Below, piece by piece: positions 462 to 6,864 of a stretch of 32,775 bases of DNA; within the stretch, counting starts at the first letter, position 1; each line of letters opens with the position of its first letter. Origin of the DNA: Chloroflexota bacterium. Its GTDB lineage: Bacteria > Chloroflexota > Anaerolineae > Anaerolineales > E44-bin32. The stretch is from assembly GCA_027298025.1 (NCBI GenBank), contig JAPUGV010000255.1:1-32775 (forward strand). Reading direction: 5' to 3'. The position numbers and the translations under genes were made by a program. The notes under the pieces were generated by a model. The model had not been told where the DNA came from. It worked only from the letters and a program-made list of their open reading frames with translations, and ran no database searches.

Positions 462-490
462 TTGACAGCAAGCGGTCACCCAGCTAGAAT
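462..490 (+). promoter_or_regulatory. sigma70-type promoter for the MCO-ZIP operon
   Basis: TTGACA (462-467), 17-nt spacer, TAGAAT (485-490); perfect -35 and 5/6 -10. Confidence 0.7.
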
Positions 491-500
491 GGCAAGAAAT

Positions 501-514
501 TTAGGCATACCTAA
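501..514. promoter_or_regulatory. Candidate operator TTAGG-CATA-CCTAA, DtxR-superfamily-like half sites
   Basis: Perfect 5-bp inverted arms with a 4-nt centre, about 10 nt downstream of the -10 and overlapping the predicted transcription start region. Confidence 0.45.
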
Positions 515-620
515 GAAAAATACTTCAATTGGCAAATTCTGGTAGAGGAAGCTGAACTTAGGCGCTTCCCGAACGCCGGGCTCGGGAAGCAAATAGCCAA
601 CGGAATAAGGAGCGCACACT

Positions 621-1667
621 ATGGAAGACAAACAACCTAAGATCGCGCGGCTGGGGAGGCGGGGGTTTATCAAAGCCGGCCTGCTTTCCGGCGGGATCGC
701 GGTCGCGGCCGCCAGCCAGCCACAGGGCCCACTCCGGCAGGGCGGCGGGGAGGAGGAAGGCGTTAACGGCCCCAACTCGGGCAATGACGACCCGTATAAA
801 ACTCACTTCGGCCTAGGCGGCGTGGGGGATGTCGACTTGACGGACTTCGATCCCTCGGCCTACCTCACCGACTTCGACTATGGTCAGGTGAGCACCCTAG
901 AGAACGGCCAAACCCTGCGGGAGTACACAATCGTTTCCGTTGACAAGGAAATCGAAGTCGCCCCGGGGATCTACTTCCCGGCCTGGACCTACAACGGTCA
1001 GGTCCCCGGCCCCACCCTGCGTGCCACCGAGGGCGATCGCATCCGCATTCATTTCACCAATGCGGGCTCGCACCCGCACACTCTCCACTTCCACGGAATC
1101 CACGCCGTCAACATGGACGGTGTCTGGGAGGTGATAGAGAACGGGCAGAGTTACACTTACGAGTTCGACGCCGAGCCCTTCGGCCTGCACCTATATCACT
1201 GCCACACCACCCCCCTCAAGACGCACATCCACAAGGGACTCTACGGGGTCTTCATCGTCGATCCCCCCGCGCCTCGGCCCCCGGCCAAGGAGTTGGTGAT
1301 GATGATGAACGGCTTCGACACCAACTTCGACGGGGACAACGAGATCTATGCCGTCAACACTGTGGGCTTTCATTTCATGCGGCACCCGATCCCCATCAAG
1401 AAGGACGAGTTGGTGCGGATCTACCTGGTCAACATCACTGAATTCGATCCCATCAACTCCATCCACATCCACGCTAACTTCTTCGATATCTACCCCACCG
1501 GGACCCGCCTGGAGCCCGACGGTTTCACGGATACCGCCATGTTCTGCCAGGGCGAACGGGCCATCCTGGAGTTTCGCTACAAGTTTCCGGGGAATTTCGT
1601 CTTCCATGCCCACCAGAGCGAGTTCAGCGAACTGGGCTGGTTCGGCACGTTTGAAGTGACGGAATAG
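621..1667 (+). CDS. Multicopper oxidase, two cupredoxin domains, TAT-type signal
   Basis: RRGFIKAG twin-arginine motif; copper motifs HFHGIH, YHCHTTPLKTHIHKGLYG, INSIHIHANFF, FHAHQSEFSELGWFG; AAGGAG 9 nt upstream of the ATG. Confidence 0.88.
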   Translation: MEDKQPKIARLGRRGFIKAGLLSGGIAVAAASQPQGPLRQGGGEEEGVNGPNSGNDDPYKTHFGLGGVGDVDLTDFDPSAYLTDFDYGQVSTLENGQTLREYTIVSVDKEIEVAPGIYFPAWTYNGQVPGPTLRATEGDRIRIHFTNAGSHPHTLHFHGIHAVNMDGVWEVIENGQSYTYEFDAEPFGLHLYHCHTTPLKTHIHKGLYGVFIVDPPAPRPPAKELVMMMNGFDTNFDGDNEIYAVNTVGFHFMRHPIPIKKDELVRIYLVNITEFDPINSIHIHANFFDIYPTGTRLEPDGFTDTAMFCQGERAILEFRYKFPGNFVFHAHQSEFSELGWFGTFEVTE

Positions 1668-1677
1668 GAGCGTGACG

Positions 1678-2883
1678 ATGCAAGAGACACAAGAGAAACA
1701 GGCTCGTGGCCGAACGCCCACCTGGTTCATCGGAACCGTGCCCCTTCTCCTGCTGGCGGCGCTGGTCTGGGTCTTCCTAACCTACGGCCCCCTGGGAGTG
1801 TTCCAGGCGGCCTTCCCACCGGTCGAGGAATTGAGCATCCAACGCATCGTCCTGCCCGAGCCCGGGGTAATTCGGCTAGAGATAATCAATGGCGGGCCCG
1901 ACCCGGTGACCGTCGCCCAAGTGTTGGTGGACGAGGCCTACTGGGTTCACACTATCGAGCCGGCGCGCACCATCCCCCGCCTGGGCCGGGCAACCATCAC
2001 CATCCCCTATTCCTGGGTGGAAGGCGACACCCACGAGATCATACTCATCACCAATACGGGGGTCACCTTCACCGGTGAGATCGCGGTGGCTACGGTATCG
2101 CCGAGGCCTAACGCGCTTTACCTGAGAACCTTCACCCTGCTGGGCATCTACGTAGGCGTCATTCCAGTTTCCATAGGTCTTTTGTGGTTTCCGTTTCTGC
2201 GCCGCATCGAGCGCCGCTGGTTGAACTTCTTCCTCGCACTGACGGTTGGACTGCTGCTCTTCCTGGGTGTGGACGCCGTGGCGGAGGCCTTAGAGCTGGC
2301 TGCCGAGCAGGTTCCCGGCCCCTTCCGGGGCGTGTTGCTGATCTTCATCGGTGGCCTGGGCACGTTCCTGGCCCTGGACGCCTTCGTGCGTTGGACGACA
2401 TCCGGCGCCCGTGACAAGAGCCGTGCCCGTTTGGTGCTGGCCTACCTCATCGCCCTGGGGATCGGGCTGCACAACCTGGGCGAAGGGCTGGCCATCGGCG
2501 CGGCCTACGCCGTGGGGGAGATAGCTCTGGGTGGCTTCCTGGTGCTGGGCTTCATGATACACAACACCACCGAGGGCCTGGCCATCGTCGCCCCCATCGC
2601 CAAAGATCGGCCTGTGCGGCTGCTGGGCCATCTGGCGGCCATGGGCGCCCTGGCCGGCGGGCCGACTATCGTCGGCACTTGGATCGGGGGCTTCAGCTAC
2701 TCGCCAATCTGGGCTACCTTCTTCCTGGCTCTTGGGGCGGGCGCTATCTTCCAGGTGGTTTATGAGATAGGGAAGCTCATGAGGCAACAGAGCGACGATA
2801 CAGCCAGTCGCCTCCTCAACGTCGCCGGCTTGATGGCTGGCTTGGTAATCATGTATGTCACCGGGCTGCTTGTTACGGCGTAG
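1678..2883 (+). CDS. ZIP-family metal permease with an N-terminal TM helix and extracytoplasmic domain
   Basis: Two HN-x2-EG motifs (HNLGEGLAIGAAYAVG and HNTTEGLAIVAPIA), multiple TM segments. AGGAG 7 nt before ATG 1678 favours this over GTG 1672. Confidence 0.85.
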   Translation: MQETQEKQARGRTPTWFIGTVPLLLLAALVWVFLTYGPLGVFQAAFPPVEELSIQRIVLPEPGVIRLEIINGGPDPVTVAQVLVDEAYWVHTIEPARTIPRLGRATITIPYSWVEGDTHEIILITNTGVTFTGEIAVATVSPRPNALYLRTFTLLGIYVGVIPVSIGLLWFPFLRRIERRWLNFFLALTVGLLLFLGVDAVAEALELAAEQVPGPFRGVLLIFIGGLGTFLALDAFVRWTTSGARDKSRARLVLAYLIALGIGLHNLGEGLAIGAAYAVGEIALGGFLVLGFMIHNTTEGLAIVAPIAKDRPVRLLGHLAAMGALAGGPTIVGTWIGGFSYSPIWATFFLALGAGAIFQVVYEIGKLMRQQSDDTASRLLNVAGLMAGLVIMYVTGLLVTA

Positions 2884-5736: not shown

Positions 5737-6864
5737 TTAAGTCGGCTCTGCGAGAGGGATGTGCTTGAGCTCGAGGAAGGCCCGAAGTGCACCAAGTACC
5801 TCATCGATATCCTGTTCGGTTACTGTAGGGCCCATGTGCCCTACGCGGAAGACGCGATCCTTCAGGCCTCCACCGAGCCCGCCGGAAATCATCAAGTTGT
5901 GCTCTTCTCGCAGATAGCCGACCAGTTCACCAATTGCTACTCCGTCAGGAGCGTACACAGCCGTGAGAACTGGAGCAAGCTGGTCATCGGGTGTAAGCGG
6001 CTCCATACCCAACGCACGAACGCCCTTCCGCAACTGCAATGCCAGCTTCGTGTATCGCTTGATTCTTTGTTCAATCCCCTCATCCAGCAGCTTCAGGAGC
6101 CCCGCGCGCAGCGCGTAAATATTGCTCGTCGCTACCGTCACGGGATGGGGATGCCACGGCCCCCATTCATCTGCAAAACGACGCCACGTCTCAAGGTTCA
6201 GGTACCAGCCATGCCCCCGATCCGCCTTGGATTCCATGATTTTCCAGGCTCGAGCGGCCACCGCGATGGGACCCAGACCCGGAGGAGCTCCAAGACACTT
6301 CTGTGATGCGCTTGCACAAATATCGATTCCCCATTCGTCCATGTCAAGAGGCAGACCCCCCAAGGCTGATACCGCATCAAGCACGATTGGAATCCCAAGC
6401 TCGTTGGCTATGGCCGCGATCTCTCGCACTGGATTAACGACTGCTGTGGCCGTTTCCAAGTACACGAGAGCAACCAGCGCCGGCCGCGGATCTACCTTGA
6501 ATGCTTGTCGAAAAGATTCCGGGTCGAGTGGCTCACCTAGCGGAGCGGACACCCGGGTTATATCCAGGCCATAACCTTCGCAGATTTCCTCCAGGCGCTC
6601 ACCAAAGTATCCATTATTTCCGACCACCACTGTCTCGCCCGTAGTGGCCAGGCTTCCGATTGCCGCATCAAGGGCGGCCGAGCCGGAGCCGGACAGAATA
6701 TGTACATCTCCCTCGGTCTTAAAAACCTGTTTGAGCAAATCCCGAGTCTCGTTATAAACGGCGGTCCACTCGGCCCCGTAATGGGGCCGGACCTGCTGTC
6801 CCATCTCAAACAAAACGTCGTCATCGACGCTCACCGGTCCGGGAATCATCAATTTAGGGGTCAA
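5737..6864 (-). CDS. Class-V (alanine/serine--glyoxylate type) aminotransferase
   Basis: MIPGPVSVDDDVL start, SGSGSAALDAAIGS, LDAVSALGGLPLDMDEWGID, SQKCLGAPPGLGP; apparent TTG start with GGGAGGA upstream. Confidence 0.87.
   Translation of the reverse strand: MTPKLMIPGPVSVDDDVLFEMGQQVRPHYGAEWTAVYNETRDLLKQVFKTEGDVHILSGSGSAALDAAIGSLATTGETVVVGNNGYFGERLEEICEGYGLDITRVSAPLGEPLDPESFRQAFKVDPRPALVALVYLETATAVVNPVREIAAIANELGIPIVLDAVSALGGLPLDMDEWGIDICASASQKCLGAPPGLGPIAVAARAWKIMESKADRGHGWYLNLETWRRFADEWGPWHPHPVTVATSNIYALRAGLLKLLDEGIEQRIKRYTKLALQLRKGVRALGMEPLTPDDQLAPVLTAVYAPDGVAIGELVGYLREEHNLMISGGLGGGLKDRVFRVGHMGPTVTEQDIDEVLGALRAFLELKHIPLAEPT

Follow-up and report, generated by a model that had tools for sequence, protein, structure and literature searches.

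In Corynebacterium glutamicum the DtxR-family manganese regulator MntR reportedly represses a ZIP-family importer, which is said to have no multicopper oxidase as partner and to be under the control of an operator that differs in sequence from the one described below. The 19-bp box of IdeR (TTAGGTTAGSCTAACCTAA) is composed of two interleaved elements of the type TTAGG-N4-CCTAA, each of which takes up one dimer, and the isolated 14-bp half site is also bound by IdeR, with a KD of ~78 nM (PMC8464063). In 2021 the 14-bp sequence TTAGGNNNNCCTAA was proposed as the redefined IdeR consensus (PMC8464063); among the literature that we searched it is printed only there. IdeR boxes that mediate repression overlap the start site or the -10 region (PMC8464063, PMC10317159). 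DR2539 from Deinococcus radiodurans represses mntH both with Mn(II) and with Fe(II) (PMC3327659).

A palindrome of the same type, TTAGG-CATA-CCTAA (TTAGGCATACCTAA; positions 501-514, no strand assigned), is found in a contig of 32,775 nucleotides from a Chloroflexota bacterium (JAPUGV010000255.1; the whole contig is referred to as the window), where it lies in front of an operon for a multicopper oxidase (MCO) and a ZIP-family metal transporter. With a probability of about 0.88 we take it to be the operator of an MntR/DR2539-type metalloregulator of the DtxR family, a 218-aa protein encoded on contig C276 of the same genome, which in its metal-loaded form would repress both the MCO-ZIP operon and its own gene. 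As far as sequence comparison goes, the identity of the operator and that of the regulator are well supported. The palindrome was classified as a predicted one-dimer site of the DtxR/IdeR/MntR type from its arms, from the conservation of its position and spacing and from the consensus given in PMC8464063.

The two arms (501-505 and 510-514) are perfect, the centre CATA occupies positions 506-509, and the flanking bases (T at 500, G at 515) do not extend the symmetry. There is no other match to TTAGG-N4-CCTAA with up to one mismatch in the whole window. The palindrome begins 11 nt past the final base of the -10 hexamer (490 to 501) and thus, as claimed in a preliminary description of this DNA, just downstream of TTGACA-N17-TAGAAT. 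The -35 hexamer TTGACA (462-467, plus strand) and the -10 hexamer TAGAAT (485-490, plus strand), scored jointly, match the consensus in 11 of 12 positions with a spacer of 17 nt; this strong sigma-70-type promoter is the only promoter-like site between 300 and 700, where 0.2 would be expected in shuffled sequences. The palindrome overlaps the -10/start region, the start site being predicted rather than mapped; if transcription starts ~7 nt after the -10 box (~497), it would span roughly +5 to +18.

In overlapping the start region of its promoter the site is like the IdeR/DtxR boxes (PMC8464063, PMC10317159). It has the inverted arms, 4 bp apart, and the 4-bp centre of the half site, as in one-dimer DtxR/IdeR operators. 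It differs from the 19-bp box in being a site for one dimer, without the second interleaved pair: of the four CCTAA repeats of the full box only repeats 1 and 3 are present, and position 514 is followed by GAAAA. The preliminary description had rightly recognized the outer arms as those of DtxR/IdeR operators; its statement that such operators have a longer centre was wrong, since a 14-mer with a 4-bp centre is the published one-dimer IdeR site (PMC8464063).

The genome, a 2.72-Mb draft that is 90% complete, contains three perfect copies of TTAGG-N4-CCTAA: the one at 501-514, one upstream of the DtxR/MntR-type gene on C276 and one inside trpA. With three copies, of which one lies within a coding sequence, a single 14-bp palindrome is by itself weak evidence, barely above chance, and it could be argued that the site at 501-514 is a chance palindrome without function. 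What raises it above chance is its position and its conservation. The C276 copy is located 17-30 bp upstream of the ATG of the regulator gene, where it has the same position with respect to a TTGACA/TATATC promoter; for three sites scattered over 2.72 Mb we calculate a probability of ~1 in 10,000 that at least one lies in the 100 bp preceding a particular gene. The site inside trpA (contig C140) and most of the sites with one mismatch were set aside as chance occurrences because they are intragenic or have no promoter nearby.

Footprinting drew on orthologues of the ZIP transporter found in 60 relatives and in GTDB genomes belonging to many phyla (Chloroflexota, Gemmatimonadota, Acidobacteria, Armatimonadota, NC10/Methylomirabilota, Poribacteria, Deinococcota and bins labelled Woesearchaeota/Nanoarchaeota; the phylum labels of metagenome-assembled genomes may be wrong for single contigs), and 86 operons were retained, each having 150 bp or more of sequence at its first gene. 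The motif is present upstream of 18 of the 86 in perfect form, of 48 with up to one mismatch and of 75 with up to two, as compared with means of 0, 0.4 and 8.9 in dinucleotide shuffles and with 0, 0 and 10 for the reversed motif. After removal of near-duplicates 84 operons remain, 17 with a perfect site and 30 with one mismatch. No perfect copy was found in the 86 upstream regions with arm spacings of 0-3 or 5-14; only at spacing 5 is the count with two mismatches also raised (33/86), as would be expected from overlap with sites of spacing 4. The bases beyond the matched letters are symmetric too (AAAAT before, AT-rich after), which is not forced by the way matches were selected, and the core common to the sites resembles TTAG-N6-CTAA, with a preference for G and C at the inner positions. 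A TTAGG-N4-CCTAA site has a TTGACA-like -35 hexamer (at least 5 of 6 bases) 20-55 nt upstream in 46 of 73 cases, as against 23% at random positions. Given the shuffle comparison over the 86 operons and the sites before orthologous regulator genes, with the only other promoter copy in this genome sitting on the regulator gene, a chance palindrome is most improbable and was rejected.

The operon is also linked to the regulator by gene order. A dtxR gene lies in or beside 35 of the 86 operons, in 23 as the first gene and in 12 after the ZIP gene, and in the relatives G005, G028, G029, G035, G042 and G055 it is the orthologue of the C276 gene that directly precedes MCO-ZIP. In operons that begin with dtxR, the palindrome as a rule precedes that gene instead of occupying the gap before mco; it is therefore read as the operator of the whole dtxR-mco-zip unit. 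In the closest group most of the orthologous regulator genes carry the palindrome ~23-60 bp before the coding match.

Other targets were looked for in the 60 relatives with the exact motif W-TTAGGN4CCTAA-W, of which one match per genome was inspected in 30 genomes. The inspected matches precede dtxR, genes for ~350-aa DtxR-FeoA proteins, feoA-feoB, feoB, genes for binding proteins of the ZnuA/TroA type, MCO genes and a gene for an ABC-type ATPase; some among these 30 single matches have no metal-related neighbour. Raw motif counts in the 60 relatives are no higher than those of the reversed control, so that the signal is where the copies lie and not how frequent they are. Judged by these neighbours, we regard the motif as the mark of a metal regulon within this bacterial order; several DtxR paralogues probably make use of it. 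The preliminary description had predicted metal-dependent repression by a DtxR/MntR-like regulator and had suggested looking for such a protein, for the motif at orthologous operons and for further copies at other metal genes. All three were found: a 218-aa homologue with a perfect palindrome over its own start region, the motif ahead of MCO-ZIP operons across many phyla, and, for relatives, its copies before dtxR, feoAB and ZnuA/TroA-type genes. These results support the prediction, in which the metal and repression in vivo remain matters of inference.

The same palindrome was observed beside the starts of the genes (L162, L163, L168, L179 and L184) for ~350-aa proteins with DtxR dimerisation and FeoA domains (identified by Pfam for L163 only), several of which have an N-terminal stretch resembling a membrane helix.

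The 218-aa protein contains the Pfam domains Fe_dep_repress, Fe_dep_repr_C and FeoA, and thus both the N-terminal and the metal-binding/dimerisation domain of DtxR. Its best NCBIfam model is that of manganese-dependent MntR (NF047407), with 210 bits versus a curated equivalog cut-off of 350, which it does not reach. Its best matches in the PDB are 5zr4, a metal-dependent regulator, and 8pvt, a protein of the iron-dependent-repressor type, which we take to be DR2539 of Deinococcus. In an alignment with DtxR and B. subtilis MntR, whose expected ligand residues fell at the expected numbers, it has Asp at the positions of Met10 and Cys102 and Lys at that of MntR Glu11, and the ligands His79, Glu83, His98, Glu105 and His106 are intact.

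Met10 and Cys102 favour iron, and MntR has Asp or Asn and Glu in their place (PMC10317159); with Asp at both positions, the primary-site ligands of the C276 regulator appear to be of the Mn type and not, as in IdeR/DtxR, of the Fe type. With DR2539 (PMC3327659) it has in common Asp at Met10, Lys at MntR Glu11 and His98, and the recognition helices are nearly identical (GVAPASVTGM versus SVAPASVTGM); the two differ at the Cys102 position, where DR2539 has Glu, and in their targets, the Nramp-type mntH there and the MCO-ZIP operon here. These MntR/DR2539-like ligands make Mn(II) the likely co-repressor, possibly along with Fe(II). Fe(II) alone in this role would turn MCO-ZIP into an iron-acquisition unit and the regulator into what is functionally an IdeR whose box is shortened. 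In favour of this, the motif is identical to the half-site consensus of IdeR and fronts feoA/feoB in relatives, the regulator has a FeoA/SH3-like domain, and DR2539 with its like set of ligands also responds to Fe(II). The ligand rule of PMC10317159 and MntR as the best family model speak against iron, which we therefore consider unlikely as the sole metal.

Several points weigh against assigning 501-514 to a manganese-type regulator. Which metal is sensed cannot be read from the motif by itself, as its position before feoAB in relatives illustrates, and at the Cys102 position the C276 protein has Asp rather than the Glu of textbook MntR; among its orthologues this position varies between Asp and Glu. 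In 11 of the 86 regions there is no site with up to two mismatches; L084 and L087, at a minimum, have one at a greater upstream distance, ahead of dtxR. The operons share descent, so the counts are not independent trials. The nearest relative, G001 (L023; 93% ZIP identity), stands outside the comparison because its contig ends upstream of MCO, as does L081, whose contig ends too near MCO.

In the mechanism that we infer, in binding, in repression rather than activation, in the metal, in the task of the MCO and in uptake as the physiological role, abundant Mn(II) in the cytosol, and perhaps Fe(II) as well, would load the C276 repressor, which would then bind TTAGG-N4-CCTAA as one dimer just past the -10 box, on the first stretch to be transcribed. 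There it would block RNA polymerase and shut off the synthesis of both oxidase and importer, and via the equivalent operator it would repress its own gene. A protein bound at 501-514 could instead activate, or the palindrome could serve another transcription factor. DtxR-family proteins can indeed activate, for example B. subtilis MntR at efflux genes (PMC11275975), and this genus has an ABC-transporter promoter in which the motif precedes the -10. The sites at MCO-ZIP and dtxR are downstream of the -10, as in genes repressed by IdeR, and the linkage of the operon to dtxR argues against a different factor; we hold both variants to be improbable.

A second DtxR-like paralogue (contig C166 of this genome, G000, 5804-6433; L017) is disfavoured as the binder. 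It has Ala and Glu at the positions of DtxR Glu105 and His106, and in the 250 bp before its gene there is no palindrome. Having lost these two ligand positions, it is probably no longer a normal metal sensor. The genome contains four further weak matches to PF01325 (26-28 bits).

Before an ABC ATPase/permease pair (1539-2471) on contig C147 of the same genome there is a site with one mismatch (TTAGTCTTGCCTAA; L013:1501-1514). It is perfect in two genomes of the same genus, where it lies upstream of the -10 and not after it (loci compared: L171, L172, L174 and L176); in most of the distant homologues examined it is not conserved. This transporter might be controlled differently from MCO-ZIP, either by occlusion of the -35 or by activation as for Mn exporters.

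The first gene of the operon (621-1667, plus strand) encodes an exported two-domain MCO (Cu-oxidase_3 and Cu-oxidase_2) with a twin-arginine-like N-terminus (GRRGFIKAG); its ATG is preceded by the ribosome-binding-like AAGGAG. The second gene (1672-2883, plus strand), 4 nt after the MCO stop, was assigned to the ZIP family of divalent metal transporters from a Pfam Zip match below the curated cut-off and from the motifs HNxxEG and NxTEG, which are conserved in the alignment of orthologues. The ZIP core is preceded by an N-terminal extension of ~150 residues (1672-2120) with one likely membrane helix and a further stretch, which is conserved in the orthologues aligned. In the predicted 5' leader of the mRNA there is a perfect hairpin (564-590, plus strand; GCTTCCCGA / TCGGGAAGC) with a 9-bp stem and a 9-nt loop; no T-run follows it in the window, so it is not an obvious terminator.

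Units of dtxR-mco-zip with TTAGGTTA[GT]CCTAA are also present on contigs labelled Nanoarchaeota/Woesearchaeota (L126, L131, L135), where the DtxR matches are short. Transfer into archaea is possible, as is mis-binning of the contigs.

No Fur, Nramp or ZnuA-type gene was detected in the genome, which we count in favour of the C276 regulator acting at 501-514; at 90% completeness it does not prove their absence. The FeoB_N matches of the genome (the best with 54.5 bits, a weak score) resemble GTPases of other kinds; genuine FeoB proteins of relatives reach 168-205 bits. A literature search for MCO, ZIP and DtxR found no description of such a module, most subscription journals being outside its coverage.

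Through this site an oxidase-importer operon that is so far uncharacterised becomes connected to a metal sensor, so that metal uptake is now the leading hypothesis for its role. From its composition of a Mn-type repressor, an exported two-domain MCO and a ZIP transporter with an extra N-terminal domain, dtxR-mco-zip may, as a tentative proposal, be an undescribed, widespread module of metal acquisition, whose parts would cooperate somewhat like the oxidase-permease pair Fet3-Ftr1 of yeast. If so, it would be the main high-affinity entry of Mn or Fe in this genome, given that neither Nramp nor a ZnuA-type binding protein nor Fur turned up there. The large natural set of single-dimer DtxR sites lends support to what was proposed in 2021, namely that the true recognition unit is the 14-bp TTAGGNNNNCCTAA, and suggests that regulators of the Mn type use this same unit across many phyla as well as in some archaeal genomes.
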